Below are positions 4,279-63,831 of a stretch of DNA of 64,000 nt, piece after piece. The DNA is from Isoetes taiwanensis (Eukaryota; Streptophyta; Lycopodiopsida; Isoetales; Isoetaceae). Below the pieces are notes generated by a model. The model did not search any database. It was given only the letters and a program-made list of their open reading frames with translations, and had not been told where the DNA came from. The first letter of the stretch is position 1. Every line of letters starts with the position of its first letter. The position numbers and the translations under genes were made by a program. Location of the stretch: NCBI GenBank assembly GCA_021234155.1, contig JAJEKV010000059.1, forward strand, positions 8,190,779 through 8,254,778, in the 5' to 3' direction.

Positions 4279-4362
4279 TTCGTAATTCAAAGTTAAGATG
4301 AGACCAGATTCATGCAAAAGTTACAGTTGTATATTGAAATAGTGAAGACTTATATATAACTC

Positions 4363-27908: not shown

Positions 27909-28154
27909 TCAGAATTTCAATAATCAAATGCAAGCAACTTTAGTAGACAAATAGTTAAACAACATCATCTTTCCTTCACAATGACTTCTAATATCATATA
28001 ATATCCAACATGAATCAAATCACCAATTCCATAGACAACATGACTTACTAGTAATGATGCCCAACGTTGCTGGGCATAAGTTGGAAATTTGTGTGGACAA
28101 AAACCTATTCAGCTCAGACTCCTTTTCATAAATCTAATAAAATAGAAATCAAGC
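27909..28154. other. no gene
   Basis: AT-rich sequence leading into the polypyrimidine tract. Nothing recognised. Confidence 0.4.
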
Positions 28155-29812: not shown

Positions 29813-30551
29813 AAGACCAATCATGTTGGTAAGAAGTTGTGCGAGAAGTCTCGACCTTTGGATGCACCTAGATGATCTCGGCCATTCAAATTAGGGCTTG
29901 ATCCAATCCAAGACTTACAGTATAACATTATAATATAAGATTGTATTTACTCAATAGCAACCTTCAACAATAAGCTAGCATTAACCATTAGTTAATAATT
30001 GCAAGCTTATGACAATACACAAATAACTGTAGCATAATATAATATGATCGAATTACTGTAGCTATGATCTTCAATGAGTTTCCTTCACATATTTAATCAC
30101 ACAAACCTGTTGTATTATGATCAGAAACACTCCCTTGATCTCTCCCACTTATCTATACATCTTTCATTCTTTTATCAGCATCGATTCCGGCAGTTAAGCC
30201 TCACCGATCTGCCGAAATTATCCTTCTGTCTTTGGTCCATTGGACTGAGAATATATACAAGGAAGTCGTTGCTTATTGGACCGAAATTTTCCATATGGTT
30301 AAACCTTAGGTCAAACTTAATAAGAGTGGCCATTGAACCATTGCACCTTTACATTGCAACATTGCATCATTCATCTGAGAATTTAACTTCCCCCTTTCTA
30401 TATGATCTCCCCCTTTGCAATAAGAGATCATAACAATGACCAACCTTAGATGTTTCAGGCTATGCCCCAGCTCAAGATTATGATATGAATTTTAAATTCT
30501 AACAAAGAGGGTAATCCGTGCGTATATGCTCAGCAAGAACTAAATACCATT
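29813..30551. other. no gene
   Basis: AT-rich sequence with a 119-codon plus-strand frame (30074-30433) of no recognisable domain. Nothing supported. Confidence 0.4.
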
Positions 30552-42466: not shown

Positions 42467-42533
42467 GAACAATGTAGGACTTACTCTCATGGAATGTGTT
42501 TGCACTAACGCAGAAACATAACTGCTTAAGTTG

Positions 42534-45010
42534 AATATGTAGCAAAATAACAGGGGGTTCCAGGGGGATTTGATATAGATATAATTCTTGAAACCATAGA
42601 CCATATCCCTAAAACAATTCAATGGGTTATTATAAAAAAAAACATAGATTTAAGATAAAAAATAGTCACATTAGCTCACTGGTTAGATTGGTTAAAGTAG
42701 TCTTATTAGGACATTGAGTTATTTTGGTAGAGGTTCGAATCCCCGTATTTCATATTCTAAAAGCTTAAGTGAAACCGTATAGAGGCTCGATATACCATCA
42801 AAACCTTAGGCAAACTCGTATTCGACATCTTAAAATCATAGGTGTCCCCAATCATAATTGAGCATAATCGAAGCGAGAGGTGTCCAGAGGCTCCAACATA
42901 TGATCTGGGCCGTCGGATTGACGAGATCCGGCAGGCCCAGTGGTAGTCCAGGGTGCACCTCGTTTAGAATATGTAGCAAAATAACAGGGGGTTCCAGGGG
43001 GATTTGAAATAGATATAATTCTTGAAACCATAGACCATATCCCTAAAACAATTCAATGGGTTATTATAAAAAAACATAGATTTAAGATAAAAAATAGTCA
43101 CATTAGCTCACTGGTTAGATTGGTTAAAGTAGTCTTATTAGGACATTGAGTTATTTTGGTAGAGGTTCGAATCCCCGTATTTCATATTCTAAAAGCTTAA
43201 GTGAAACCGTATAGAGGCTCGATATACCATCAAAACCTTAGGCAAACTCGTATTCGACATCTTAAAATCATAGGTGTCCCCAATCATAATTGAGCATAAT
43301 CGAAACGAGAGGTGTCCAGAGGCTCCAACATACAGTCTGGGCCGTCGGATTGAATAACAGGGGTTCCAGGGGGATTTGATATAGATATAATTCTTGAAAC
43401 CATAGACCATATCCCTAAAACAATTCAATGGGTTATTATAAAAAAAACATAGATTTAAGATAAAAATAGTCACATTAGCTCACCGTTAGATTGGTTAAAG
43501 TAGTCTTATTAGGACATTGAGTTATTTTGGTAGAGGTTCAATCATTATTTCATATTCTAAAAGCTTAAGTGAAACCGTGATAGAGGCTCGATATACCATC
43601 AAAACCTTAGGCAAACTCAGTATTCGACATCTTAAAATCATAGGTGTCCCCAATCATAATTGAGCATAATCGAAGCGAGAGGTGTCCAGAGGCTCCAACA
43701 TACGATGCAGGGCCGTCGGATTGACAGATCCGACGATCGTGGTAGTCCAGGTGCACCTCGTTTAGAATATGTAGCAAAATAACGGGGGTTCGAGGGGGAT
43801 TTGATATAGATATAATTCTTGAAACCATAGACCATATCCCTAAAAATTCAATGGGTTATTATAAAAAAAACATAGATTTAAGATAAAAAATAGTCACATT
43901 AGCTCACTTTGGTTAGATTGGTTAAAGTAGTCTTATTAGGACATTGAGTTATTTTGGTAGAGGTTCGAATCCCCGTATTTCATATTCTAAAAGCTTAAGT
44001 GAAACCGTATAGAGGCTCGATATACCATCAAAACCTTAGGCAAACTCGTATTCGACATCTTAAAATCATAGGTGTCCCCAATCATAATTGAGCATAATCG
44101 AAACGAGAGGTGTCCAGAGGCTCCAACATACAGTCTGGGCCGTCGGATTGACAGATCCGGACGACCGTGGTAGTCCAGGGGTGCACCTCGTTTAGAATAT
44201 GTAGCAAAATAACAGGGGGTTCCAGGGGGATTTGATATAGATATAATTCTTGAAACCATAGACCATATCCCTAAAACAATTCAATGGGTTATTATAAAAA
44301 AAAACATAGATTTAAGATAAAAAATAGTCACATTAGCTCACTGGTTAGATTGGTTAAAGTAGTCTTATTAGGACATTGAGTTATTTTGGTAGAGGTTCAA
44401 TGCTCGTGATTTCATATTCTAAAAGCTTAAGTGAAACCGTATAGAGGCTCGATATACCATCAAAACCTTAGGCAAACTCGTATTCGACATCTTAAAATCA
44501 TAGGTGTCCCCAATCATAATTGAGCATAATCGAAACGAGAGGTGTCCAGAGGCTCCAACATATAGTCTGGGCCGTCGGATTGATGAGATCCGGCGACCGT
44601 GGTAGTCCAGTGGTGCACCTCGTTTAGAATATGTAGCAAAATAACAGGGGGTTCCAGGGGGATTTGATATAGATATAATTCTTGAAACCATAGACCATAT
44701 CCCTAAAACAATTCAATGGGTTATTATAAAAAAAACATAGATTTAAGATAAAAATAGTCACATTAGCTCACTTTAGTTAGATTGGTTAAAGTAGTCTTAT
44801 TAGGACATTGAGTTATTTTGGTAGAGGTTCGAATCCCCGTATTTCATATTCTAAAAGCTTAAGTGAAACCGTATAGAGGCTCGATATACCATCAAAACCT
44901 TAGGCAAACTCGTATTCGACATCTTAAAATCATAGGTGTCCCCAATCATAATTGAGCATAATCGAAACGAGAGGTGTCCAGAGGCTCCAACATACAGTCT
45001 GGGCCGTCGG
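42534..45010. repeat. six-unit tandem array of ~430-bp SINE-like units
   Basis: TTAGCTCAC landmarks at 42671, 43103, 43475, 43899, 44333 and 44763 give spacings of 432, 372, 424, 434 and 430. Each unit holds a tRNA-like head, a middle section with CCCCAATCATAATTGAG, a hairpin-prone GGGCCGTCGGAT…ATCCGGC…CC segment and ends in GCACCTCGTTTAGAATATG. The second-to-third junction lacks about 60 bp and the last unit stops at GGGCCGTCGG. Minus-strand open frames of about 90 codons recur in the units as by-products. Confidence 0.9.
42663..42755 (+). ncRNA. tRNA-derived SINE head (unit 1)
   Basis: TTAGCTCACTGGTTAGATTGG resembles a tRNA D-arm/A box, and GAGGTTCGAATCCCC 60 bases downstream is a canonical T-arm/B box. 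No acceptor stem pairs, so this is a Pol III promoter-bearing SINE head and not a working tRNA. The B box is intact in units 1, 2, 4 and 6 but degenerate in units 3 (GGTTCAATCA) and 5 (GGTTCAATGC). Confidence 0.65.
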
Positions 45011-46360
45011 AAAAATATTATTAAGGCGGATGCAATACAAGCTGGCATGTATACGTGGAAGTTTGAGTTGCTCAGCCCGTCAAAAAACTTGTGGTGGAGA
45101 CAATTACGTTGCCCCAGGGCATGTAGCATTTATTCTACACCTTTGAAAACGTGAAGATGTCAAAAGAATGATTTTTTTTACTACAAGAAGTATAATATTT
45201 ATAAAACATTCATTGCAAGACTCAAATTGACCAAACCAATTTCTGGTTTAACTTGTGTAAGTAACTGTCTTCCTTTAACTTATGTACTTTTTAGCTGTTG
45301 TGTTAGTAGATGAAGAATCTTACGCATCTCATCATATGGCCAGCAATTGAAATAATGTGATACGTGAAGAAGACAAAGAAAAAATGGAGTATTAAGTAAT
45401 TGTTATCATTATAGTTTCTTGCCTCTAGATGAAGGTAAATAGTTTAAGCCACTGGTGCTTAATTTTATGTATCTTTATATTGGTTTATATTAAAGTCTTA
45501 TTGAACTATTCTAGCATTCACAGATAAAAAGCTTTTTAAGGTGTATTGAAGATCCTTTTAACATCACAAAAGCTGATTATAAATTTGCAAGATTGTATTG
45601 GCATAGGTCTTTTTTGTGTAAGTTTAGTTTTGACAACATATATTCACAATGATGTCTTATATCGAAGTTAAAAGTGCAAATATGCTATAACTACACATGA
45701 TGCAAACTATTTATTCAATAATGAGCAGAAATCTTATATCAAATAAAGTCTAACAAGTGATCTATGATGGAATTTTGCCATAGAAAATTCTGATTTTATG
45801 ATTAATATATTTCAGGTTGTAGATGTTTGACTTCTAGATGTTTGCCCTCCATTGATAACTATAAGTATTTTTTGTAACTATAAATGCTTTTATTTGCAAT
45901 TTAATACTTGTGATTGATATGTTTCATGTTCTAATGTTGGCCTTTAATTTTATCAACACCCTTGATAAGATTGGTTATGAGGCCAAGGTAACATTTGTGG
46001 AATGATTCCTTATTAAGAATATTTCTTATTAAGTCTTCTCTTACTGGAGTTCTCATTGTTTTATGACCATATCATCTAGATAAATTGTTTAGATCAAGGT
46101 CATTGAAAGTAAAATATTTGATGTAAGTTAGGAGTAGGAGCCTGTGTCTGGATGAATGCATTCTGCTTGTTTTATGCATTTGCACTGCTTTTATTTGTCA
46201 CATTTTCTTTGTTGAGTTTTATTTGGTCCTTTCAGCCCGTTAGTATGGATGGTCCTTCTTTTTCATGTTCTAGATATTCCTATATTTGTAATTGAAGAGT
46301 ACAAAAAATTGTAGAATCATAAGACCTTGGGATGCCCCATTCTGACAAGACTTCAAGCTT
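45011..46360. other. AT-rich gene-free stretch
   Basis: No supported gene. The right part may contain the lost C-terminal end of the DUF7869 transposase on the minus strand, but no recognisable motif remains. Confidence 0.45.
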
Positions 46361-48390
46361 CTAGTGGTAGCAAGCTTCATAGGAATCAGAAGTAATTAGA
46401 GACATCTGGTCAATCTGATCATGGATGTGCCCCACAAGTAAAAATCCGAGCTTTACTTTTATGAATATCCTTAGCTCCACTAGCATAGCACAATAAGCAA
46501 AGAGTGTTTGATTCTCGTTCTCTCTTGTAGTGTTGTCAAGTTGCAGGTAGAGCACTGGTGATAGTTGCTCTTGCTCGCACAGGACCTTATTAAGAATTGT
46601 AATTGTCAGGTTTGGGTCACCATGCAAGTTTGGATACGTAAAAAATACTTTGCACTTTAGACTTCCTTTGAAGACCATGGCTCCTACAAGGTGGACTTTA
46701 ACAAAACATTCCTCTGACACATCTTTTGGAATATTTAGGAAATGGGTAGAGTTGTCTTTTTTTAATCCATTCCATCAATTACAATACATATATTGCAATG
46801 GACGTTTGAGAGCTTTTTTTCTGTGCTTGGCCAGCTTTCTTCTCTCTGCTGCTTGTTGTTCACGATGTCTGGCAAGATTCTGTTGCACAATATCTGTAAA
46901 AGAAATCAGGTTAAAATATTATGTTTATAACAAGTGAGAGGTTGGAGAGCTTGAGCTTACTTCTTTCGACCTCTGTCTTTGCAGTTTCTCGTTGACTTTT
47001 TAATTCTGCACATCTTGAGCAAACAGACATTCTATGTCTTCTTGGAATTTTTACCAGGCCAAATTCACTCTTCCACAATCTAGTGAAGTGTGAGTAAGAG
47101 ATGTGCTGAAACTGAATGCAAGTCTCTTTGTATTCTTTGAAGACATCCTTTTTTGTAATATTGTCTGTCAGATGATACATGTTGCTATTAGGCAACTTCT
47201 CACATGTCTCTCTAAAATATTTCTCCATCCATGTCACAGCAGCCAAGGCATGCATGGTCACAACTCTCCTTGGACCACAATGATCATCAATTGCTGGATT
47301 TTTATCCAGTCTTTTGTGTATTCGAGACATTCTTGTGGACCCTAAACGGTGGACAACCATGAAGCATTTCTGGCAGACTTGTTCACGGTTAACGTAGTGC
47401 AAGAATGTGTTGTTGTTTGGTCTTACATGGTAAGCTAAGTAGGCATTCTGGTCAGCCAATGTCATTGAACTGTGGTTGTCTCTAACTGCTCGTAATTTAG
47501 CCATGTTAAATCTGTTGATGCAACCCAATGAGCAGCATTTAGTTCTCAAGAGTCTCCTCATTTTGTGTTCATCCATAAGGTTTTTTCTTCTTACAGAGGA
47601 GCATGCTCTCAAAGTAAAATCCACCTTAAATTTCTTTGAAGATTGGCTGGAGAACATATAATCTCGTTGTTCCTCATTAGTGTCTTCATCTTCTGATGAA
47701 ACTTCTACTCTAGGGGTGACTTCCTCAGTCCTGAGTGGTGTGTTTGTAGAGGAAAACAGGCCACCTGAAGTTGTTCCCGGAAAAGGCGGTAGCACAGTGT
47801 TAAATGATGGTGACGGCCCATAAGAGGTTGTGGCAGCAGCTGCTCTTGTACCGTCCTGAAAAGGAGTTCTTGCAAACATATCCTTTCTGGAATTATGCAA
47901 ATCCATGTGTCACAACCGTTGTGTGACAAGGATTACATGCTGCATCGTCCTCATTTGTAGTGAAGTCCTGGGGTGAGAAATTGTAGTGAATCTCACAGTC
48001 TTCTGTGTTCCTTGTATACTTGCACGAAGGGGGCGAAACGACAAACGGTGGGGATAGCTTGTTCTTGAGCACTCGTTATAGTGGAGCCTCTGTAGGTCCG
48101 GGGGATGGAACGAAGGGTGGTGGCAGCATGCTCCGAACTGGAGGTGATGCTTTGAAAGGAGATGCGAGTGCACTATCTAATGGACTTGGTGACGGTTGGA
48201 AGGGTGGTGGTAGTCTGTTACGTGCTGGACTCGGAGTGTCTTCGAGAAGCAATAACGATATTGTAGAGGTAGGAGTCGGAGAATGCCGGTCTTCTGAAGA
48301 AAAGGCGTTGCTCCCAAGCATTTCCTCAAAACTAGACGAGCTTGAGACAACAAAAGGTGCTGGAAGTTTGTTCACGAAGCGGTTCGTCAT
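46361..48390 (-). pseudogene. DUF7869-type transposase, copy A
   Basis: Read leftwards, a Pro/Ser-rich N-terminus from ATG 48390 has repeated PPPF-x-PSP and SPFKASPP motifs, one in-frame TAA (48076-48078) and a frame change near 47910. Then comes a 331-codon frame: FKVDFTLRACSSVRRKNLMD, CQKCFMVVHRLGSTRMSRI, RRVVTMHALAAVTWMEKYF, SNMYHLTDNITKKDVFKEY and CSRCAELKSQ. A GT-AG intron (about 46966-46897) leads to VQQNLARHREQQAAERKK. The core follows with IDGMD-x-KK (frame-broken), FVKVHLVGAMVFKGS, YLQLDNTTRENENQ, FAYCAMLVELRIF and KLGFLLVGHIHDQIDQM. The LQLDN…EN(K/E)NQ and GH-x-HDQID signatures define DUF7869, for which I infer an RNase H-like transposase. The C-terminus after DQM is lost. The gene is divergent from the methyltransferase gene. 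Confidence 0.65.
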
Positions 48391-48691
48391 CTTGACAACT
48401 GCAAAATAGTGTAGAGATTTGAGAAACTTCCTTTCTTATTCCCGAATACAAGTATTCCAGTAACAATTAAGTGAAAGGCAAACTAAAAGCTATTCGAGGA
48501 TACACTGGACTAGAACAGTAAAGCTAAACGTATTCCACTTCACATAGAATACGAGCAAGACGAAAGGGATACCTTTAAAAGGAAATAATGGCGCCCTCAG
48601 TTGCGTATTCCAGTCTCTGAGCTCAAGTCGCCAGCGCCAGCGCCTCGAATTTTATATTCAGAGACTGCATTCCGATTCGCATAAAGAAGAC
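48391..48691. promoter_or_regulatory. bidirectional intergenic region with TATTCC palindromes
   Basis: The 301 bp between the two divergent start codons. It holds several TATTCC half-sites (about 48451, 48532, 48606) and GAATAC copies, the same motif that is palindromic in the introns of the gene to the right. A TTTATATT run about 40 bp upstream of the ATG at 48692 could serve as a TATA element. Shared regulation of the two genes is inferred from the arrangement. Confidence 0.45.
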
Positions 48692-49874
48692 ATGGACAGG
48701 TGAGTAAAAAGTACAACGTACAATCATTTCTTAGTGTGTTTGTTATTCCGGAATAGGTTTTGGCTTTCACACGAAAGCCAAAGTGTATTCCAAAATACAC
48801 TTTCGGTGGTTTTTTTCTAAAGATGTTGCAAATTTAAGAAAAAGTAGCTTGTTTTTTAACACTTCTTAGACGATAAAAAACCTTTAAAGGGCTTAAATTT
48901 GTCCTGTATTAGTAAAAAAAAGTTGAATTGTTATTCCAGAATACGTTTTAGTGTTGGTTCCGTCCTCTAAATTTGGTTTTTGTCTCAAATATGTTACAGA
49001 CAAGAAGGTAGCAAAAAAACTTCTCGCAAGACAATAAAGGTAAAAATAAAGCCACACCCACAGGCAAGTGTACGCGAAACAGAAGAACCCACTGTGTATG
49101 AAAATTTTCAGACACAGTGGTTTATCACAAGGGGAACAGGAGGAAAGTACAGCACACTTACTTTCCTCCACGTTTGTGGAAGTCCTGGAGGAAAGCACTA
49201 CACTGACTCCGACTTTATTTGCATGGGAGTAATAAGAGAACTGTCTGAAGTGGCCGGAGAGTCCGGACAACAGGGAAGGATTTCGTTTAAGACCACCCAA
49301 GGATATATTATTATGGACCAGGGCTATTTTAGGCTTGGTAGAGTGACACCTCCAGCTTTGTACAAATACATGACGCATTACATAAACAAGCTGAGGTTGT
49401 GGGAAATTATACACAGAGTGCAATCCACACAAAGCGAGGATTTTGCACACAGCGCATCCGAAGATGAGATAGTGGAGGAGGACAGTCAAGGTGATGGCTC
49501 CAGTCAGGAAGAAGAGGACGGAAGTCCCAAAGACATCGAGGAGCATCGAGATTTGAGCCGGGCCAAGAGGCAATCAATGCGGCAAAAGAACCTAAGAAAC
49601 GCAAAGTGCAGGAGATTGTAGTACAGGAAATCCCTGAGGAGCAGCCAAAGAAGAAGAAGGAAAAGGGCAAGGCACCCGGGGTGGCCATTAAGGAAAAGAA
49701 GGTGGACAAGACCTCGGAGAGGATGGAAGAAATAAACCAAAAGAAATATATGCAAGGTGTAATTTACTTGCCAGTAACTTCCATGAGGTTGCCACCAAAA
49801 ATGCGATGGTGAACGCCCCCTTGTGTCTAAAAAATATATGCTCGACCACTTAAGGAACCCGAAGGATAGAATAA

Positions 49875-49884
49875 GGAGCAACCC
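49875..49884 (+). repeat. 10-bp target duplication of MITE (left)
   Basis: GGAGCAACCC here and at 50430-50439. Confidence 0.85.
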
Positions 49885-50429
49885 GGGGATAGGTTCAATC
49901 AGATAATGCTTTATAATGTCACGTATTTTTCGCTTGATACGGCACAAATTTGACGCTTAATACGTCAAAAATATCGTCCCAAAAAATTTCCTGTCGAAAA
50001 AATTTCGCGTAAAGCGAAAACCTTCTCGCTTAAACTTTTACGAAACTTTTTCGTGAAAACCTTCCGGTTTAAAACTTAAAAAAAAAAAAACTTTGTTTTA
50101 AACCGGGTTTAAACTACGCTGGCTTTTTAGTTTCGCTGCAGAAGTTTAAATTAAGGTTTCGCTTTACGCTGAAAAAGTTTCGCGTAGTTTAAATGGAAGG
50201 TTTCGCTTACGCCGAAAGTTTTTGAATTTTCGCAGCGTGTTTAAATCGGAAGGTTTTCACTTCGCTGAAAAAAAAGTTCAGTTTAAACAGTAAAGGTTTC
50301 GCTTTACGCCAAATTTTTTTTTCCTACCAGGTATAAAAATCACGAAAAATACGATTTTTTCCCAAAAATACGTATTTTTGGACTTTATACGTCTGAAAAA
50401 ATAATTTCATACGTACAGAACCTATCCCT
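49885..50429. mobile_element. 545-bp MULE-like MITE
   Basis: It starts GGGGATAGGTTC and ends GAACCTATCCCT, an 11-bp terminal inverted repeat, and is flanked by the 10-bp duplication GGAGCAACCC. A duplication of 9-10 bp is typical of Mutator-like elements. The interior is non-coding, with recurrent TTTCGC-TTACGC and TTTAAAC motifs and inverted ATACG segments. It interrupts an accessory exon of the methyltransferase gene. Confidence 0.85.
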
Positions 50430-50739
50430 GGAGCAACCCCAATGCCCACGTTGCTCCAATGTCGTTCTTGTTGACAGATCCCAATGTATGGACCCCAAGG
50501 ACTATGACAGGGAAAATGCAGACACTTATATGCACTATATCCTTGGGGGGAACCACAGTTTCAAAGCAAGGAGGCAGTTGTACAAGGAGAAAAACAACCC
50601 GAGATATCTCTCTGTGCTCGGCGATGTTTACTGCAGCTTGACAGATGAAGAATCGAAGATCGTTGCTAACATGCACAATGCTGACAACGAATATAAGCTT
50701 AAAATGAGCTTCGTGGACAAAATCAGTTTTATGCACAGG

Positions 50740-53700
50740 GAATGCCACGGTTCTATTGCGATAGCAATAGAACCGACATTCCTTGGATGGGGACGTCTCC
50801 TTTTTTGCACTCTCTATTTATTCAGCCTCTTTTTCATTTTTTCGTCATCGGCGTTCTCTTGAGCTAGTTTTCTTCTTCTTCTCTATCCTACCAGTTTCGT
50901 TACCCTACCAGAATTTTGCCTCTCTTCAACCTACCAGACTTTCTAGCCTCGCCTATCCACTTGATTGCCGTTTGCTTGGATATGGAGACATGGTTTCGAC
51001 ATAAGCCCCAAGGCCGGTCTTAATTTGTTTTTGGTGACATCTTCTGGGTGTATCTGTTTACTTCCTTTCCCTCCTTCAATGGGCACAAGATAAGGCGTCA
51101 CAGATGCAGTCCGGGATTGTTCAGGCGGGCCTGGGTCTTTTCAGGTCCGTTTTTGCCTTATCTGATTTTTTTGTTCGAATTGGGGTTTGTACCCGTTTGG
51201 ATGCAAAGCTTCTTATCTTGCTGGATGAGTGCATGTTCATGGCGTCCTGGGTTTTCGAGGCATCTGGATCTTCTCTGACCCACTCGGTCTGAGGCCCGGA
51301 GGTCAGATGTTGATGTTCCTTTTTTCTTTGATGGCAATACTGAAGGGAAACCTTCTGCTTATGGTCATCTCCCGGGAGATTTACGATGCTACTAGGGTAA
51401 GACCTTTCCATTTTCTTTGCATATATTTGCAACAGCTCAGCAGCTTGTTTGCCCCAAATTGCATCATTTGATGGTACGGTGAGTCGGTGGTGTTTTCTTC
51501 TTACTAGATATGGTTTTATTAATCTTACATTGGAGACCGATCTATTACATCTATTATCAGGCCGTTACATCTGTTACCAGGCTCATCATACTCAAGATCT
51601 ACTAGTTCCACCAACCTCATCTTCTTATGGTTGTGCCTTAGTTATGGTTTGTCTGCAGGATCCAAGCTCAGAGGAGCGTTTGGTTGAGAGGCGCAGGGGA
51701 CTATTTTGTTTCAGCCTTCTTGCAGTTGCAGTATTTTACAGAGGTTTCAGATCCATTTTTATCTTGTAGACACCATTTTGGTAGGCCTTTTCTTCCTTAT
51801 TCTTAGGCTTAGGCGACCCTGGTTCAGGTCTGTAGCCTCTGCGTTAGTTATTTTGGATTCATCTTTACTGTTCATGATTCTATTCTTCCTCTTTGCTCTA
51901 GTTTTGACAGATGATAAAGCTTGAATTCTTAATATATCCTACTGGATCTATGTTGCCTTATCATATCCTTCTCTTGGATCCATTATGGATAGTTTTACTG
52001 CTTTATTTATTTTGGCTAATTGTCTTCTTGCCCATTTCGATGCCACAGATTCTTTAGACCTTACTCTTTGATTTCTCTTGCTTTTCTCCTTTGATTATCC
52101 AGTTCTGAATCATGGTCTCTTTTGGGCATTTGAAGTTTAAGGTCAGTTTTAATGTCTTGTCTTATGTTTTAATATGGCAAAGAATATTTAAGACATGGCT
52201 GGCTTTTGCCGCCTCTGTGCATTTCTAGCATGATATGTTTAACGGTTAAAGCTTCTTTGTTCGATCTGCTCCCTCTGAATTTGTTTCATGTGTCCTTTGT
52301 TTCATGTTTCCTTTGTTCGACTTTGCTCAATTTAATAGTGGATTCCAGGTCTACATCGCTCATATATAGTTTTTTGTTCTGAGTTCGTCATATTTTTGGA
52401 CTGTTTGAATGTGGTAGTTTTCCTGTAAAGTTTGCTTTCTGCATTGCCACAACCACTAGCTTTGGTGGACTCATAGTCCATGCATCCTTGCCGTAGCTTT
52501 CCAAGGGTACCAGCCAGCTTAGATAGAAGGGAGGCTTATCATGGGTTTTTTCAGGTGTCAAATACAAGGCTACATCCCAGGGCTGACAGTGGGTGTCCAG
52601 TAAATTTATTGATCTTATATTGCAGGTGCCGTACACTGGTTTGGCATTTTTCTATATGGTTTACCTATGTCTTGGTCTATTGCATTCAATCCGATCCTTT
52701 AAATCGGTGGCGTTTTAATTCAGTCAGGGCGGGCTTCTCTCTTTAGTCCCTTTAAGATTACATTTGTGGCTCAAGGAGCATCGAAATTCAAATTGGTTTG
52801 CCGTAAATGTAATGCATTGCGGTTTTTTGCATGGACTTAGATCGATTTGGTAAAGTAATGGCGTTGAGATTATCAGTTTACTTTGTGACAATGCTGCCAT
52901 GCACCAACTTATAATTTGTTCTATACTTTGTTTTCATTCTATTCCTGCCGCCGTGCCTTTATTATAGTCAGTTTTTTATTGCACTCCGGCATACCTTATC
53001 AAAGCGCATAATATCTCTCATAAAATCGAGCTTGTTCTTTATGAACTTGTCTATTTTTTGCACATTTGTCTTTTGGATATGATTGTCTTTTGGATGAGAC
53101 TTTAAATGCACGTGTCTTTAGGTCTTTATCATTTTGCTTGCATATCGTTTTTATGGCCTTAAATGTTTGCCGTAAAGTTGGTTATCGATTTGCATTTCAT
53201 CCTTTTATGGCCTTAAATGAGATCGTGTCTTTCGGTGGGTCTTTATCAATTTGCATTTCTTTTTATTGACTCTAACGTTGCTTATCTTTGTGGTCTTTAT
53301 TAATTTGTATCTTATTCTTTTATCCATGAAGGATGTTTTAGGGGCAGAGCTTGTCGATGGGAGTAGAGCCAGTACGCTCACGGTCATGCCCATTTGGTTG
53401 CTCCGTTGCGGGCTTCAGACCAATGGTAGCACCCCCGATATTGTGGTGGTCACCTTTTCTCCCCTTTTTTACTTTCTTAAACTATGGCCATCTATTTTTA
53501 ACATACCCGTTTTTGTCCCTCTATGTTTGCAATTGACATGTGTTGTTTGGCTCTGGATACGAATGTTACTATCAACACGCCAACTCCGCGACTTCTGATG
53601 ATGGGTATCAAAGTTTTGGTTCCGGTGGTGGTTATTCGATATGGTACATTGGCCACATTGGTTCTCTTGATGCCGTGGCCCAGTTGTTGGTCCGTTATTT

Positions 53701-56423
53701 CAGTAAGCAATTAGCATTATTTTTTTTTGGTCTCCTTATTCGTTTGCATTGTTTCTCTATAATAATTTTTGCCATTGTTCTTGCATGAAATTGATCTTTA
53801 TATCTCTTTGGCATATTTGGTCTTTACTCATGCACCATAAATTGTAGATTTTAGATAGGAGCATTCCCTTTTTAGTTTTTGGGGCATGCATTCAGGTTTG
53901 TGGTACATCTTTGCCTCATTTGAGCATTGGCCCATATTAGACGTTGTTGTTCCAATCATCACACATTTTAGTTCCATTGATTTATTCATAAATGTGTTTG
54001 GTCTATTTCTTGCATTCTTGACCATTAGAGTTTGGATGCATGGGCCTTTTGATTTTTAGTGGTGTAGTCATGCTCCGTCCCTATTGTGGCTTTGGACTAT
54101 GATAACGTTGAGAATCATTTTTTACGATGGGCATGTTTGATGGGCGTGTTTGATTTGATGGTCGCATTTGTTCATTTTTAGTACAGTTACATGTTAGAGT
54201 TGTAGGGTGTTTATCGGTTCATTAGGTCATACTTCAGGTGTCGTGACAGAGACGAGCCCATCTTAGCAAGGTAAAGACATGATACTGGTCTTCTGAACAT
54301 ATTGTTCTTTTCTTTCATTTATATGTCTATTTTTCCATTTCTATTTATATTGATCAAGTCTGGTCTTATACGTTTCACCTAACATCTCTTAGTCCTTTTT
54401 GCTCTCGTTATCCTCTCATTTAAGCAGTTCGCTCTATACTCCCCTCATTCTTGATGGCTCCATTTGACTTATGTTGATGTCTAGTCGGGTCGGCATCATT
54501 CTTGTTTCTTTCTCTGGTGACTAGTTTCTATTGAAAGATATTAGTTCGCACTCCTTTTCATTCTTGTTGGTGCTTTATTCCATTATTTGCATCGGCTTCC
54601 TCTCATCATTATCAATTCCAGAATATCCGTTCTTGATGGAGTACTCTTTAGCTTAGTCCTTTTCTGTCAATTGTTCTTTAACTCTAGCTTACTCCACTTT
54701 GTTGTGTGATATCATCATTCCTGTTAATTTGGATTTTTGTGAACTTGTTTGTTATATTGTCCATCCGCTCACCTCTGCTTTATTAATCTTAGATTGGTTT
54801 TAGCCTCCTTTAGTCGACTTTTCCCATATTTCCTGGTTTCTAAGTTCTTTGGGCCTTTATTTTCGGTGTTCGTCGATAGAACCCTTTTTTGCTCTATGAT
54901 CTTGTTGGTCTTTATTGGCATCTTCGTTTCTTTTGAACCACTTGCTTTGCTTTTTCCATTGAGTTTTTTGCTACATTGCTCCATGTTGTTTCCACATTCT
55001 ATGCTTTCGAATGCGAGTGGTTTATTTGCTTCTTAGCTTTTGGTACCCTTGGTCACTTCACCTATATCTATGCTTCATCCTTTTTTGAGTTGCTACATTG
55101 CCACGGTCCCCTTTTTTATCACAGAAAGTTCCTTTGGTCTCAGTCACTCCATTTTTCCTATTAGCTCTGTTTACTCCTTAATTTTTTGTCATTTCATTTG
55201 CTCCATTTGCACTTTCATCTTGCCTTCTTTGTACCATTCCCTTAAGCTAGTCCTTCAAACTCCATCGTCTTCATTTGACTCTTTACCATGTTTTATGAGC
55301 TCTCTTTAGATTTTTGGTACCATGGTTTCAATTTTCCATTTTCCTGCCTAGTTCTCTTCTTGCATTTGCTAACCCTATGCTTTTGTTACGTTTCCAACCC
55401 ATTGTCCCTGTGGCCTAGTTGCTCAAACTTTTCCAGGATTTCTAATTTTCAAGTACCTTATGCCTTTATTTCCAGTTGTTCAAGTTTGACTATAGATTTC
55501 TTTGTTTTTTAGGCGTTTTTACTTTTGTCATTTAGGTACTCCTTTGCCCCCTTTTATCCAGTTTTTATGGTTTTGTGTTTTTCGCTTTGACCCTTTGTTG
55601 CCTCCGTTTTTAGATTTGTTATGCTTGCTCCATAGTCTTATTAGCTTCATCTGTGCATTCTGTTTCATTCTGTTTCAGTGATTCTTGTGGACTCATTTCT
55701 CCATGTCTTTATTCCACATTTTCAATCTATTCTATTAGAGTCGACTTGCTCCGTTATGGGTTGTCATTATGGGTTGTTGCGCTCCTCTTTGCTATATGCT
55801 CCCCTTTATCTCAGCAGCTCCATTTGATGGCATTTCTATATTCGGTTCTGCATGCACTGTTCCCTTCATTGATTTCCCTTGGCTATTCTTTTGTTTGACA
55901 TTACTCCTTTAGTTGCATCGGTTCCCTCTTGATTTCGTTATCTTCTTGCTCTTTGTCTATTGCTAGTCCGGTTGGTTCGGATTTATGTATCTTTGTTGGT
56001 GTAGTATGTAATTGGTGCATTAGTCATTTGCCATCGTTACTCGGTTGATGTCGTCATGTTCATGGCTCTCTTTGCTTCTGTTCCATGAATTCCTTTCCTC
56101 AACTTTTACTGCACTTTTCCATCTTCTCCTTCATCTTTATGTTCCTCTTCCATCTTTCACGACATTGTTTCGTTGTGTCCTTTCTCCTTTGTCTAGGTTC
56201 ATCCTCTATGTACCCTCAGGCTTTGTGGCCCTCCCTCATTTGCCAGGTTTTCCATCAGCCTTATCTGTGCATTCTGTTTCTTTTATTCAAGTGACCTTTA
56301 TAGTCTCATTTCTCCTTTCCTTTCGAATAGTTTTCATTCTGGCTTCTTTTCTTTCTTTGTCTAGGTTGAGATTTGTTCCTCTTCTATCGGCCGACATATA
56401 TGTTGTCATAGGACCCATCCTAG
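50740..56423 (+). mobile_element. 5.7-kb insertion A in methyltransferase gene
   Basis: It starts GAATGCCACGGTTCTATTGC, a 43-bp foldback (50739-50781), and ends CATAGGACCCATCCTAG. The first 158 bp and last 35 bp are repeated at the ends of insertion B, which follows directly. The plus strand is T-rich, with short frames only and no recognised protein. No GT at the left end and no target duplication is seen. Exon sequence on either side of A+B is in frame. Confidence 0.7.
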
Positions 56424-58109
56424 GAATGCCACGGTTCTATTGCGATAGCAATAGAACCGACATTCCTTGGATGGGGACGTCTCCTTTTTTGCACTCTCTA
56501 TTTATTCAGCCTCTTTTTCATTTTTTCGTCATCGACGTTCTCTTGAGCTAGTTTTCTTCTTCTTCTCTATCCTACCAGTTTCCCTCACCCTCCCTCCCTT
56601 GATGGCTTGTCTGCATCTAATTTTATCCGCATTTCATTTTCTCTTTACCCCTTAACATTCCATGACCATCTCTGTCTACGTTTTCATATTTTTGGGGGCA
56701 CTTTGCAGCATCTAGACCCTCCGTGGTTTCGTTTCAATGTTTTAAGTTTCTCGGTGTGGCACTTTAGCCTCTGAAGCCTACTCATTATCTCGTTCTTCTT
56801 GGAGTCTGTCAAAATTTCTGTACTTTTCAGGTCACCCTGCAGCCCTCGATATCCTCTGCTTTCTGTGTGGCTCTGTAGCTTCCATGACTTCTTACCATTT
56901 CATTCTTTCTCGGCATGGTTGTGGCCTCTGTGACTTTATTTCTTGTTCATTTTCTCTCGGACAGTATCTATTATTCATTTTCACGGGCGTGTGGTTCCGT
57001 CTATGTTGTGGCTCGGTGGTCATCAGCTTTGTCTGCGTAGTTTCTTTTTCTTGGCGTGGCGCTGTAGCCTCCGAATAAGTATTGTCTATTCATTTTCTCC
57101 TCGGCGTGGCGCTGTAGCCTCCGAGGCAGCACTAATCGGATATTCTTTTATGCGATGGCTCGCAGATGGTTCCCGATTGGTCGGCTGTTGTTTGTTCCTC
57201 GGTGTGGCCCTGGAGCCTCCGAGTGCTATTATGTTCTTGATATTTTGGGTTTGGCACGTGCCTATGCCATGACTTCTTACCATTTCATTCTTTCTCGGCA
57301 TGGTTGTGGCCTCTGTGACTTTATTTCTTGTTCATTTTCTTTCGGACAGTATCTATTATTCATTTTCACAGGCGTGTGGTTCCGTCTATGTTGTGGCTCT
57401 GTGGTCATCAGCTTTGTCTGCATAGTTTCTTTTTCTCGGCGTGGCGCTGTAGCCTCCGAATAAGTATTGTCTATTCATTTTCTCCTCGGCGTGGCGCTGT
57501 AGCCTCCGAGGCAGCACTAATCGGATATTCTTTTATGCGATGGCTCGCAGATGGTTCCCGATTGGTCGGCTGTTGTTTGTTCCTCGGTGTGGCCCTGGAG
57601 CCTCCGAGTGCTATTATGTTCTTGATATTTTGGGTTTTGGCACGTGCCTATGCCTTCTGACTTTTTAACGGGTCATTCTCTTTTTTAGACTTTTCATTGC
57701 AGGTTAGTTTCTTGCAATTCTCTCAGTTGTCAGCACCATCATGTGATACATCAACTCATTTCTCGGTGGACATATGCTAGCAACACCCTTCGAAAGCGTT
57801 GGCGACTGTCTCTTATTAAGGTTTTCCTTAAAAACTCGAAAGGGCGAGGTTGTTCATCCCCATGAGAAGCGTTTGCCAGTTTTCTCACCTTTGCATAGAC
57901 CAAACAGCGGATAAATCATCTTTTATCTTGTATTTCCTATTTTTCTCGTGCTCTCGATGATTATCTAATTTCGGGGCATTCAAATTTCAAGTCTTTCAAA
58001 AGTTCTACTCCAGTAGGGGTATCAATTTTGTACTCAATGATTTTACAAAGCTCAATGAGAACACCACTTCACTTGGCCGACATATATGTTGTCATAGGAC
58101 CCATCCTAG
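56424..58109 (+). mobile_element. 1.7-kb insertion B, tandem relative of A
   Basis: It shares the 158-bp left end with A (56424-56581 against 50740-50897, one mismatch seen) and the 35-bp right end (58075-58109 against 56389-56423). The interior differs. It contains a 385-bp tandem duplication and many TGGCGCTGTAGCCTCCGAG-like short repeats. The ACATATATGT palindrome and the TAGGACCCATCCTA stem sit at the right end of both. Confidence 0.7.
56884..57653 (+). repeat. 385-bp tandem duplication inside insertion B
   Basis: 56884-57268 is repeated at 57269-57653 with few changes, both beginning ATGACTTCTTACCATTTCAT. Confidence 0.85.
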
Positions 58110-60347
58110 AAATATATTATATTTAAAGAAAAATATGGAGAAGATTTAAAGAAACCAGCATACTCTCTGGAACTAAAGGAAGCGTGTGCTGTGGAGTGCT
58201 GCCTCAAGTATGACGAGGCTAACAAACGGCAATCTCTCATACCACATGACAACTGGTTTCAACTAGCCTTCAGAGATGGCAGAGTAAGTTTCTTTTGTAT
58301 TCTGGAATACCCCTGCGACCCTCCCACTGACATCGCCTATTACTGTGCAGATATGGGACCTACAACACGACATTTTTACCATGTTTGAACGTGGTGAATT
58401 GAAAAGTAAAGGAAAGGTCACCGAAAAGAAAAAAGGTTGTGACGTCCCTAAGAAGGAAATGACCATAACTGTCTGGAGAGAAATGCAGGGCTTTACAGAC
58501 CTCGACTTACTCGAAAGGCTACTGCAGAAGGTTGTAGACAAAGAATTCACGCTTGAAGAAATGTCCAAGGAGCTGCACAAGTAAGAACTACAGCACATTC
58601 TTTCCAGTTTTCCTTAGGTTAAACGAAGTGTATTCCAGAATACACTTTGGCTTCGGAGTGTAAGCCAAAGTGTATTCCGGAATACACTTTTGCTTTGGCG
58701 TGTAAGCCAAAGTGTATTTCGGAATACACTTTGGCTTCGGAATACACTTTGGTATTCCGGAATACACTTTGTCTATAAAATTTAAGAAGCGTATTCCAGA
58801 ATACCTTACTGCCTGTCGAGATGTTTCTTTCTCATTGTTTTCCTTCTTAGTTATCTTTCTTCTAATGTGGTTCTGTTTTACAGCCAAAAAAACGTCATCA
58901 CATGTCAAACATGCTTGATGGAACAACTAAATGTTGACAGCTGGGAAAGATGTAAAGAACTTCACCCCATCGCGACCTCGGACGAAAGGATAATTCAATA
59001 CGCTCCCAATTTTGAAGGCTGGGTATGCTAAAAAGTTTTTTACTTTTTCATTTTTCTTGTTACAAAGACTATCTTTTTTGCAGAGTAAAAAGAAAAATAA
59101 GGACCTACCGCAGGGCTTTATGCATCTTGTCAGGACAGCGCGTGAGGAGAGGACGCTTGCGGACAGGCGTGTTTTGGATAATGAGCCCTCCGACTACGAA
59201 CGTTTTATAATGTTTGATCAAAACAACTTGTTCTGTATAGTACACGGTGATTGCACCAAACTGGCCGAAACAATAAAGCCCCAAGATTTTACCTTGGTAG
59301 TAGCTGACCTTCCTTATGGATTCAAACTCAAAGACAGCCGCTACGACGACCAGCCATTTAAAAACTCTGAATTTAATGCTTTCGTCGACGGCATTAAGCA
59401 GATTACCACGGCAAAACATTGGAGGCTGGTTGTATTTCACTCAAGCATGCAATTCGGCCTTGTGGAAGCTAGTTTCAAGAATCATTTTGGTTCCCCTACG
59501 CAAGCTGGTTATGAAAACCTGGTTTGGTAAGCACTTATACTGGAATACAAATGTCCTTTTGTTTTTCTTTCATTCTTTTTCTTTTAGTAACACCTGCGAG
59601 CATTGTTAGGAGTTTCTATTCCAGAATACGTTTCTGTCAGTTGTACTTAAATCCTCTTTTATTTTTTTGTTCTTAAGGTACAAAACAAATATAAATTACC
59701 ATGGCAGAGGCCCTAGACTGTTGAGTAAGGTCAAATATCTCCATGTCGCTTATTGGAGTTTCGATGGGAAACGTACAATGGAACACTTCAACACAGCAGC
59801 GTGCCAGAACTTTTCAAACGTGTTGGAGTTTCCAGCGGTTTTGCAGAAGCTGCAGGACCCTAGTGCACAAGGAAGAATAGTGAATCACTATCAAAAGCCA
59901 CAGAAGTTGATTAACCATCTTCTGGACATGTTCTCACGTCCAGGAGATTGGGTGCTCGACGCATTTTCTGGCTCTGGTACAACTATTGCTTGTGCACTTA
60001 AGAAGGGCCGTAACTATATAGCCATTGATATTGGTAAGGAGGCTGTCGATTTCATCAAAATGAGACTTCCTGCCTTACAAACTCTACCAGACGAGAATCA
60101 AGAGTTGGGGGCAAAGTCTAATTCTGGTTTTGCTAAGATGACATCTTCGGAGATACAACCTCCCTTTACAAGCTCCTTGGATGACGAAGCTACTTTTGCA
60201 GAGCTGAAAGAAGTAGCTCTTGCTGCCATACCGGAATCAACTACTAACATTGAGAAGCCTAAGTCACCAGAAAAATGTGAAAAGATAGAACCTGACCAAG
60301 CTGAAAGCAGTAAGAAAAATGAAGAAGACTATATTTTAGATCTCTGA
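58110..60347 (+). CDS. beta-class DNA amino-methyltransferase, 3' exons
   Basis: Exons 58110-58283, 58351-58580, 58884-59022, 59084-59526 and 59678-60347 join with GT-AG introns into an open 551-codon frame ending in TGA. The first ~180 residues are accessory, with a C-x2-C motif (VITCQTCLMEQLNVDSWERC). The catalytic part has FCIVHGDCTKL, then VVADLPYGF (D-L-P-Y at 256-259, motif IV) and, after a linker, NHYQKPQKLINHLLDMFSRP (motif X-like) and VLDAFSGSGTTIACAL (about 421-436, motif I, the SAM-binding FxGxGT), followed by NYIAIDIG (motif II). Motif IV before motif I is the beta arrangement of bacterial N4C/N6A methyltransferases. These methylate exocyclic amino groups of cytosine or adenine from S-adenosyl-methionine. 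A D-x-P-Y motif leans towards adenine, but DPPY and SPPY overlap in specificity. The C-terminal ~80 residues are acidic and disordered. Intact motifs and splice sites suggest recent selection on this half. Confidence 0.85.
58629..58807. repeat. cluster of TATTCC-R-GAATA palindromes in intron
   Basis: At least five TATTCC/GAATAC palindromes in under 180 bp, embedded in ACTTTGGCTT flanks. 58667-58690 is a perfect 24-nt palindrome centred on CCGG. The same core recurs in other introns of this gene (48747, 48790, 48931, 59615, with looser copies at 58298 and 59540). Confidence 0.85.
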
Positions 60348-61047
60348 TGCATCTCATGCTGTGGTTGCTGACTGATATTTATTATTGATTGCCATTACTG
60401 ATGTAACACAAAAATAGTAATGAAATTATTGTTATTATTTTTACTAAATTTGTGTTTTTTGTACATCCACCGACAAATAATTCTGTACCCATGTCTCAAT
60501 TTTGCTATTTTCACGTGCTTCACTCCAAAAAACCAAAGTCGTGTCCAAAAAATACCCCAAAAATAGGCCCAAAAAAAAAGCTGATACTCCTGAAACTTTA
60601 AACCTCTCTTAAAAAAGCCCACTTTTTAAAATGACGTGTTTTTTCTAAAGGAATCTTTGAAGGATGAACAAAAAGTTTATTAATCAACAAGAATATGTAC
60701 AAAATGAATATTTCTCATCTAGTTGTGTAAGCACAAGAGGGTGTTGTTAGAACATGAGCCTGCAAGACAATGTACTTACTCCGTACTAGATAAGTAAAAT
60801 GAGATATGACTCTGCTTAAGGGTCTAACCACATTGGACTTGTAATGGAGTCAAACCACATGTGACTGGAATCTCAGGAGAGAACCATCATTCATTTAAAT
60901 TGGATTTATGTCAGGATTTTGGACCATTTTGGCACTGCAACTTTTTTCCGGGTTCGTAAATTTGCATCGAAAATGTGACTTTTTTATAACAGTACAACAT
61001 GATTGCATTAAAAATCGAAAATATTTTACCGAGTGACATAATGCCAA
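60348..61047. other. 3' flank, no gene
   Basis: AT-rich 3' region of the methyltransferase gene. Nothing recognisable apart from A-rich runs. No terminal repeat of a transposon was found. Confidence 0.4.
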
Positions 61048-63831
61048 TTACTTCTCAGAAGTGACCCCTAGAGATGTCATAGCTTTCTTCCTCACTTCCA
61101 CAGGTATTATAACCCTAGCAGTCTTGCCTGGGATGGCCTTTGGGGTCCATGAAAACAAAATAGTATCTAACTCAACCCAATCATCCCCTTCAATAGGGTT
61201 TTTCTTCCATTTCTTTGTCCAACAGTCTCTATATCTTTCTTCCTCTGCCACTGCATTTAACTGGTGCACTGGACACCACCACTCCACACGAACTTTGTTC
61301 ACATTGTGGTTAGCCACTTCTTTGCAAACATCTGAGATGGTGTAACCCATCCACACAGGGTATATCGCTTTGCGCTCTGGTACTATAAGTGCAAATTGAT
61401 GGCAAAGCAAGTCATCTTTGGGACCATAATCCTCCCGCCCGAGATATTTAGACCTTCCTTTCCTAGGACCAACATAATGTTTTTCAGCAGCTGGAGGAGC
61501 CATCGACTTGCGAATACTACTAACCACATCATCAACTTCCTCAGGTGTTATCAAGTCTCTCCACCTAGACTTAGGTAGCCATCCATCTTTCAGTTCATCA
61601 GAGGATGTGTCTACATGTCCCAATAATCCATGTACCTGTGTCCAATAATCTATCAATGCAAGGTTAGTATCATCAGGGTTATTTTTCCAATACTTGATGT
61701 ATTCAGAAATGCTGTCCAATGCGTTTTGCAATGAATCCACCTCTGCAAAAGGCTTAAGAGCTTTTGGTTGACCCCTGGGAATCTTAGGTTTACCATTTTC
61801 ATCTTCGTGTCATATAGGTACTCCCTCATCTGGCCTTCATTTATCATCTGAAGGTCTCATCTTCCATTGCATTATTGGCTTATTCCTCATGACCCAAAAA
61901 GTGTACTGAAGAGGTCTAGATTGATCTTCCATATCAAGAGCATAACCTTCGATAAAATTCTTCCAATCAGGCACCTGTTGTATGATCAACCCTATAGGAG
62001 AAGGTGAAATGCATTCACTAAGAACTTCCATTAGTCTATGAAGATTGGTCACAGTTTGAGATTTCAACTGCGCATTATATTTCCCAAACAATGCATCCAT
62101 CATCCTCATGAGTATGTCCAGGCATTAAGAACCCTAAATTCACTCTTTCAAAGGCACCCACAGCTGTTAAATAAGATAGGAATGAGAACATATGCTTGTT
62201 TTTGTTCTGTCCAGCACAATTGTCAAGTTGGAGGAGGAGCTTTGGTGGTATATCTCGAGGTTGGGGACGTGAACTTGGGCTCCAACATGTTCAGAAGCAC
62301 CTAACTTCCTAAACCTTGCCTTAGTAAACTTCTCTAAATTATTAGGCTTTCTATCCAACAATGCACTGAAGAGTGGTTGGCTACCACCTCCAGGGTTGTG
62401 GAGGTCACCAGAATAACCACTCTCATAGTTCCTCAAGCACCAAATCACACTTCCAATATGAAAATCAGGACCATCACTCCACAATTGCAAACTAAAATGA
62501 CCATAATAGATTGGCACCGATCTATGCACTATTGCACCTGTCAGAAAGACTTGCATAGGATAAGCTCTATTGATTTGCTTGGATATGTAACTATACTGTG
62601 GCAAACAAGTCTTCGATTGATCCATATTGTCATGTATAATACAAACATAGTTATTGGGTTCCAAACATGATAATGTACTCTACATCCAATAAGTGGATCT
62701 ACATGATAGTTGGTATGTCATGTGATCTTTCATTTGCTCCCTTATCTTAGCCCTTTGGCTTGGTTGCTTGGTCTTGTCCAGAATCTCTTTCAACTTAGCA
62801 TACAAGTTGCACTTTGCAAAGTTGTTCAAAGTGTCTATAGTGACATGCTTGAAGTGCTTGCTCCATAGTCTATTGAAGCTGGGTTGAGATATTGTAGGTA
62901 CTATTAGTTCTCGAAGCAAAGCATTCACTTCCTCCAATATGCTCTTCTGGGTACAATGGGATGGCAATCTCTTCTCGACAACTATTTTTCTCTGTTGATC
63001 TTTCCTATTTTTATGTGGCATATTCTCAGCATTGAATTCAACATATTTATCAAAAACCTCCCTAGCAGCCAGGATCCTAGAAGTTGGCCTCAACATGCAA
63101 TTATTTCCACGTAATGCAATTTTGCTCCTTTTTGCATGACTTGATGCCAATTTTGCCAAGATGAAATTGGAATGCCATGAATATTTATCCATGCACTTTA
63201 CATATCCATGCCCCTAGCAGTGGGTATCTTTTTTTCTTTGGATATTTTTCATCTTGAAGTGCAAGCTCATGAATGGAGTACATGTAAGTCCTCCTCCCAT
63301 CACAAGTATACTCTTGGAAGGTGGCTCTTGCTTCTACCAATTTATCAATTTCAAACTTTTGAACACAATTAGCCCAACAACATTTCATTCCCTTACCTTA
63401 GCTATAGCTTCACGTGAACAATCACTACTTGACTTGGACCTCTTGCTAGGATAATGTTTCACCATTGAGTGTGCCCTCTTTCCTGAAAATGTGGTCCTGG
63501 CAGCTATTGGAGGTGCATTAAGAAAATCAGTGTCATCCACAACCTCTGGCTCTGGTAAAAGGAAATCTCCTATAAACTCAATGCAGGCTATAGCCCATGG
63601 CATGATGCATGGGACCTCCAATTGTTTAACATAAGCAGTGCAATCCTGGTGATTTGACCCTTTTTCCTTCCATTTTTCTTCTAAACTTGTTATGGCCACA
63701 CCCACTTTATCCTCTCCTAACCTTTCATCATTGACAACTTGGATAGGATCAGCTAATATGGTAGTTCCTTCACCTACTAGCTCCTTATTACATTGGTGCT
63801 TCACTTTCACCTTCTTATTCTTCCAATCCAA
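61048..63831 (-). pseudogene. DUF7869-type transposase, copy B
   Basis: Read leftwards from 63831: a charged N-terminus with KRAHSMVKHYPSKRSKSSSD, then the conserved middle (NCMLRPTSRILAAREVFDKY, LIVPTISQPSFNRLWSKHFK). An in-frame TAG at 62680-62682 precedes EPNNYVCIIHDNMDQSKTCL, YPMQVFLTGAIVHRS and DFHIGSVIWCLRNY. A frame change gives KLLLQLDNCAGQNKNKHMFS, YLTAVGAFERVNLGF and MPGHTHED, and a one-base shift in the codons after HED leads to DALFGKYNAQLKSQTVTNL. The C-terminal part reads KPIMQWKMRP and WVELDTILFSWTPKAIPGK to 61048. The order HDNMD, QLDNCxGQNKN and GHTHED-x-DALF matches DUF7869. It is clearly diverged from copy A. At least one stop and three frame changes make it inactive. Confidence 0.7.

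Follow-up and report, generated by a model that had tools for sequence, protein, structure and literature searches.

A DUF7869 transposase and a putative beta-class DNA amino-methyltransferase paired in a terminal-inverted-repeat transposon family of Isoetes taiwanensis

We analysed a stretch of 64,000 nucleotides of the Isoetes taiwanensis genome (assembly GCA_021234155.1, contig JAJEKV010000059.1, positions 8,190,779 to 8,254,778; hereafter the window), in which a methyltransferase gene on the plus strand lies divergent to a gene with a DUF7869 domain on the minus strand. The initial annotation had read the two as one mobile element carrying both a transposase and a beta-class amino-methyltransferase, and this was borne out by the recurrence of the divergent pair inside common terminal inverted repeats (TIRs) bordered by a 4-bp target site duplication (TSD). 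In the window, the last part of exon 2 (58110-58283) and exons 3 to 6 (Table 1) were spliced to one open frame of 551 codons, with the plant-type GT-AG boundaries that had been claimed throughout these 3' exons. The transposase start codon was placed near 48390 by frame reading and that of the methyltransferase at 48692, which leaves the proposed shared intergenic region of about 300 bp. The minus-strand frame at 46361-46774 matched DUF7869 with E=8.7e-33, the profile query carrying four extra leading residues. The damage described earlier was also found: exon 2 contains frame shifts as well as two insertions, at 49885-50429 and at 50744-58109, and the transposase frame is broken.

A profile search (PF01555) of the plant's own assembly (1,658,258,908 bases, 1,110 contigs) gave 1,443 first-look candidates for the methyltransferase, and all of the 150 that were scored lay above the Pfam cut-off. 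Twenty-five loci of ten kb were fetched as a non-random sample, 20 of them with a stop-free exon 6 and five with long or unusual frames. The DUF7869 gene was divergent and upstream of the methyltransferase in 19 of these 25, and a chance pairing in the window is excluded because the arrangement recurs across the genome. For locus L012, counted among the 19, the stretch includes only an N-terminal piece of the DUF7869 gene. L016 has it in the same orientation as the methyltransferase, and no DUF7869 was found within the stretch read of L015, L019, L025, L027 and L030, those of L019 and L025 starting inside the methyltransferase gene. Pairwise comparison of copies gave sharp left ends, and the common terminal repeats that had been anticipated were present as TIRs of about 25 bp with a 4-bp TSD in all 12 of the fetched copies that have both ends. 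The left end reads AACAARRTTGCGTATTAAACGGGAG and the right end CTCCCGTTTAATTTGCAACCTTGTT, each with variants, so that the inverted repeat is imperfect. The duplicated targets were ctaa, taag, catt, aaac, ataa, ggtt, taga, aact, atac, tcta, atat and atca; the 12 copies measure 7.5-8.4 kb, and no two of their flanks were alike. The closest pair of elements shares 96.2% identity over 8.3 kb, which suggests fairly recent movement. By this layout the family almost certainly has the structure of a TIR DNA transposon. Zisupton (KDZ) elements duplicate 8 bp (PMC12730594), as against 4 bp in 12 of 12 copies here, and assignment to the DIRS-type retroelements failed, a TIR, a TSD and a DDE-type gene all being present. 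One element, L010 (461-1495 and 9653-10003, in methyltransferase orientation), is seemingly nested, as read by eye, in a reverse-transcriptase-like frame that continues on both sides.

When the window was compared with 20 copies by blastn, similarity on the left ended at 46402 in 14 of them (in one further copy at 46426, while one starts inside), and on the right at 60661 in all 13 of the 20 that match there. These limits place the window copy without both termini. As judged from the comparison of copies, the window holds a broken member of a family of autonomous TIR DNA transposons. The high copy number also bears on two other origins. A unique host gene is ruled out by at least 150 genomic matches, and bacterial contamination is unlikely given the five introns, the spread of at least 150 matches over many contigs and the absence of a close prokaryotic relative from the searches made.

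In methyltransferases of the beta class, the motif IV pattern [DNS]-x-P-[YF] stands N-terminal to motif I FxGxGT. The spliced window product has the order that had been reported for it, DLPYG before FSGSGT, and matched N6_N4_Mtase (PF01555) with E=1.3e-19 and 71.5 bits against a cut-off of 26.7. Motif I (LDAFSGSGTT) was unchanged in 22 of 24 exon-6 sequences, with variants in L022 and L024; ADLPYG was found in 13 of 13 exon-5 sequences, a circular count as these were picked with the motif IV pattern. The median ratio of nonsynonymous to synonymous substitution rates (dN/dS) was 0.072 for exon 5 (13 sequences, 63 pairs) and 0.073 for exon 6 at a median dS of 1.34 (24 of 26 sequences, 254 of 276 pairs), the exon-6 value being pushed downward by the choice of intact rows. 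Without function, so large an excess of synonymous over nonsynonymous change would hardly be expected in divergent pairs, and natural selection appears to keep the methyltransferase intact through strong purifying selection. The frame of L029 is stop-free through exons 2 to 6 and, measured from the nearest stop upstream of exon 2, has 965 codons, the first 22 or so being intronic by our reading; its exon 1 was not located. The predicted product of L029, about 940 residues long, is supported as a beta-class methyltransferase domain preceded by a variable N-terminal region and a possible ParB-like segment. It is likely that intact copies encode an active DNA amino-methyltransferase.

The nearest solved relatives of the catalytic domain are CcrM and M.MboIIA (6pbd, E=5.4e-10; 1g60, E=1e-8), which are bacterial enzymes, and the match covers only part of the domain. 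The best PHROG profile match was the phage methyltransferase family PHROG_67 (E=1.7e-25); its members are phage proteins, and direct tblastn to phages gave 23-26% identity among the best 20 of 458 records. A protein search with the spliced methyltransferase returned 10 weak matches of prokaryote type (best E=1.2e-5) and residues 1-285 returned no match, in a search that reached proteins of about 303-964 residues, to which single-exon fragments of plant relatives are invisible. The same protein database contains plant and animal DUF7869 proteins. Viral scans with methyltransferase peptide patterns confirmed one and two distant loci, and a scan of genome contigs confirmed none of 83 stretches; each used two short peptide patterns, which makes these weak negatives. 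A close prokaryotic or viral donor was found in none of the protein, viral, contig and phage searches.

The part of the methyltransferase protein upstream of the catalytic domain was characterized from L010, whose segment homologous to the window's matched the ParB family TIGR03764 with E=5.3e-4 and 19.7 bits. This is under the cut-off of 143.75, and the segment is called only ParB-like for that reason. All nine of its weak plasmid matches (E 0.6-2) are annotated as ParB, and a ParB-like segment in the methyltransferase protein is suggested by these weak matches; a search of the PDB with it gave no match. It also matches phrog_30771 and the Pfam family DUF6551, which have no assigned function and are not evidence for ParB.

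The window's DUF7869 match covers positions 1-110 of the 192 of PF25273, and the transposase of L029 matches the same profile with E=1.5e-51. The reading of DUF7869 as a transposase was upheld by three conserved acidic positions, with D in 27 of 28, 30 of 30 and 30 of 30 relatives, and by a fern relative, which is predicted to fold in the RNase H manner and gave structural matches of DDE type and BAH type with moderate scores. From the fold predicted for this relative, the first gene of the element is supported as coding for a DDE transposase that may end in a BAH-like domain. Its DUF7869 region had a median dN/dS of 0.149 (11 sequences, 52 pairs). The window part is 86% identical to P0011, a protein of 559 residues from a 3.5-kb ENA contig that is 75% identical to the transposase of L029 and perhaps comes from another Isoetes. 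The Adiantum protein P0070 joins DUF7869 to PF00665 and the Riccia protein P0098, named a cellulase, joins it to PF00759; these combinations are either annotation fusions or captures. An older DUF7869-like transposase relic with no methyltransferase lies on the minus strand at 61048-63213 of the window, with 22-44% identity to relatives and no Pfam match, and is strongly depleted in CpG (observed/expected 0.205, against 0.63 in methyltransferase-bearing elements; a single case). DUF7869 is mentioned in no paper of the literature searched, which excluded subscription papers and preprints.

Besides the two genes, the elements share an array of palindromic sites. The palindrome GTATTCCNGAATAC, with the longer core AAAGTGTATTCCGGAATACACTTT, was found with at most two mismatches in all 25 fetched loci, where it occupies the promoter shared by both genes and introns of the methyltransferase gene. 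Twelve full elements carry 7-21 palindromes each, 172 in total against one in 23,209 bp of flanks, and 153 of the 172 are outside coding-matching intervals; some of the other 19 may sit in short bridged introns. The sites are internal to the element, with none at the TIRs. Of 153 gaps under 130 bp, 111 measure 41 or 42 bp, a spacing of four helical turns that suggests protein binding on duplex DNA. Within the window, all matches with at most one mismatch fall at 48436-59629 (10 positions and 16 strand matches, 0.05 expected), and allowing two mismatches adds two palindromes elsewhere, at 21003 and 25500. The intron 2 site has a mean column identity of 97% against 82% in the remaining intron (16 sequences). 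Intron 3 contains a 42-bp tandem array at 58626-58741 and inverted repeats with arms of up to 34 nt that are 94% complementary and 8 nt apart.

The identity between copies shifts abruptly along the element. As far as roughly position 6277 of L010, L010 and L013 are 88-98% identical, and 64-84% thereafter, while L010 and L021 are 85-90% identical in the transposase (to 4277), 56-78% at 4278-6277, which takes in the 5' end of the transposase, the promoter and the methyltransferase N-terminus, and 77-95% beyond 6277, save for one window in intron 3 at 66%. These shifts suggest recombination at two places, close to the promoter and between the ParB-like part and the N-terminal region of the methyltransferase, and subfamilies seem to recombine into mosaics such as L010, L013 and L021. 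The promoter and the N-terminal region seem to diverge as one block, with the palindrome and the ParB-like part constant, and the divergent block would be compatible with a specificity module.

Our best reading of the family, to which we give a probability of about 0.55, is a transposon-borne DNA amino-methyltransferase that probably marks the element itself. The enzyme would be active and put N6-methyladenine (6mA) or N4-methylcytosine (4mC) on DNA, 6mA being proposed because motif IV starts with D, and the methylation would be directed to the element through the palindromes of the shared promoter and of the introns of the methyltransferase gene. The element would probably benefit by keeping its promoter and ends usable against host silencing; alternatively, transposition may be coupled to the methylation state of the copy. 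That the marking is self-directed we put at somewhat less than even odds, and that the palindrome array is the enzyme's address, bound through the ParB-like part, is a tentative and rather doubtful step. Just as tentatively, self-recognition might come about if the fusion of ParB-like segment and methyltransferase read the helically phased array, in a parS- or iteron-like manner, and marked it with 6mA or 4mC; the BAH-bearing transposase would then read this epigenetic identity of the element together with host chromatin. CpG content was considered as a sign of shielding from 5-methylcytosine (5mC) and the comparison of elements with flanks was not decisive, the observed/expected ratio being 0.63 (0.54-0.72) in 12 elements, 0.56 (0.13-0.98) in flanks, 0.55 in window positions 1-44000 and 0.64 in insertion B of the window copy.

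The enzyme might instead act broadly on the host genome, as the Marchantia sperm 4mC enzyme is reported to do, and the palindromes might be sites of the transposase or of host transcription factors. Such an account draws on the clustering of palindromes in the divergent promoter, where regulators bind, and on the genome-wide 4mC enzyme known from a plant (cited in PMC8885841), but the sites are also found in methyltransferase introns 2, 3 and 5, at a distance from both the termini and the transposase gene, and the element would have no obvious advantage. We consider it unlikely. Dam methylation controls the timing of IS10 transposition, and by analogy the enzyme could time transposition here, with hemimethylated or unmodified ends as substrate and movement after replication or on new arrival. 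The two genes share one promoter region, so a balance between them is possible, and the transposase family has a predicted BAH-like domain; yet the palindromes are internal and not at the TIRs, and we hold this analogy to be no likelier than broad action on the host. It is still less probable that the palindromes are hairpins of RNA or single-stranded DNA, serving splicing control or as sources of small interfering RNA and unrelated to the methyltransferase: many sites do lie in introns and intron 3 has its long inverted repeats, but the divergent promoter has sites too, and their spacing of 41-42 bp points to proteins bound to duplex DNA. The many broken copies, that of the window among them, might suggest an inert passenger taken over from the host or from a bacterium, but this is very improbable in view of an exon-6 dN/dS of about 0.07 at a median dS of 1.34, the conserved motif I and the presence of the methyltransferase in divergent subfamilies.

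Table 1. Features of the transposon copy in the window (positions of the window; strand and basis where given).
Feature	Position	Strand	Basis
Relic of one transposon copy, both terminal repeats missing	46402..60661	.	blastn against 20 copies
First part of DUF7869 (DDE) domain; remainder and predicted BAH-like C-terminus lost	46364..46774	-	PF25273, E=8.7e-33
Region N-terminal to DDE core	46914..47909	-	31-34% identity to DUF7869 proteins; homologous open reading frames in other copies
Proline-rich N-terminal fragments, start near 48390, frame broken	47910..48435	-	open reading frames; similar in L013, L021, L024
Shared divergent promoter region, about 300 bp	48391..48691	.	positions of both start codons
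Imperfect palindromic sites GTATTCCNGAATAC, at 48436 (promoter), 48785 and 48931 (intron 1)	48436..48944	.	
Methyltransferase exon 1	48692..48699	+	ATGGACAG/GT, by eye
Methyltransferase exon 2, two insertions and frame breaks	49000..58283	+	comparison with other copies
ParB-like segment (most of it; interrupted by insertion A)	49757..50743	+	homology to L010 segment
Insertion A, MITE-like (miniature inverted-repeat transposable element), inverted ends, 9-10 bp target repeat GGAGCAACC(C)	49885..50429	.	
Insertion B, two T-rich units with both end sequences in common, in exon 2	50744..58109	.	
Palindromic site, intron 2	58297..58310	.	
Methyltransferase exon 3	58351..58580	+	splicing to open frame
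Five palindromic sites, intron 3, 38-42 bp apart	58630..58804	.	
Methyltransferase exon 4	58884..59022	+	splicing to open frame
Methyltransferase exon 5, motif IV DLPYG at 59306-59320	59084..59526	+	splicing
Palindromic site, intron 5	59616..59629	.	
Methyltransferase exon 6, motif I LDAFSGSGTT at 59955-59984	59678..60347	+	PF01555

The site of insertion A is uninterrupted in L022 and L024. The units of insertion B, of about 5.7 and 1.7 kb, begin alike, with a palindromic stretch, end alike and stand in tandem with GAAT between them; the AT skew of the insertion is -0.19 to -0.47 in 2-kb steps. Elsewhere in the window, at least 1.5 kb of the plus strand at 28300-29800 is nearly pure pyrimidine, with a GC skew of -0.68 and an AT skew of -0.62 over 28001-30000, and 432-bp tandem repeats occupy 42533-45011 in nearly six copies with 95-98% matches, two of the listed units having the same open frame of 97 codons and a third a shorter variant.

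Should the enzyme be active, one vascular plant would have well over a hundred mobile genes for a base modification of which both the existence and the origin in eukaryotes are contested. Whether transposons bring new epigenetic marks into their eukaryotic hosts could then be tested directly in this family, as could element-borne protection against silencing. For biochemistry the palindrome array, a newly recognised internal feature, is a ready candidate target. DNA-modifying enzymes borne by transposons are known as such, but none of our searches showed a beta-class enzyme in a vascular-plant TIR transposon of DDE/BAH type, and no beta-class methyltransferase in a DNA transposon stood among the literature matches listed (titles and starts of abstracts, same scope as above).

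The anti-silencing protein of plant VANDAL elements is, to our knowledge, not a methyltransferase. These elements, named in PMC12730594, resemble the present family in their element-encoded, sequence-specific anti-silencing in plants and differ in belonging to the MuDR superfamily. Bacterial-type 4mC enzymes that work in eukaryotes, like the amino-methyltransferase considered here, are described from a bdelloid rotifer (N4CMT, PMC8885841) and from Marchantia (cited there); that source presents them as enzymes of the host and not of a multicopy transposon, N4CMT having a chromodomain. Also known are mobile elements that encode their own DNA methyltransferase, namely DIRS elements with Dam-like N6A enzymes, which are adenine methyltransferases, and DNMT-bearing retrotransposons of dinoflagellates and charophytes (PMC5890265), although these are retroelements with C5 or Dam-type enzymes and without the TIR/TSD structure of the present family. 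Fungal DNA transposons that encode TET/JBP dioxygenases (Kojima 2025, PMC12730594) likewise place a DNA-modification enzyme, thought to counter silencing, beside the transposase; these enzymes oxidise 5mC and do not methylate, and the elements belong to fungi and to other transposase superfamilies, with TSDs that include 2, 3, 6, 7 and 8 bp.

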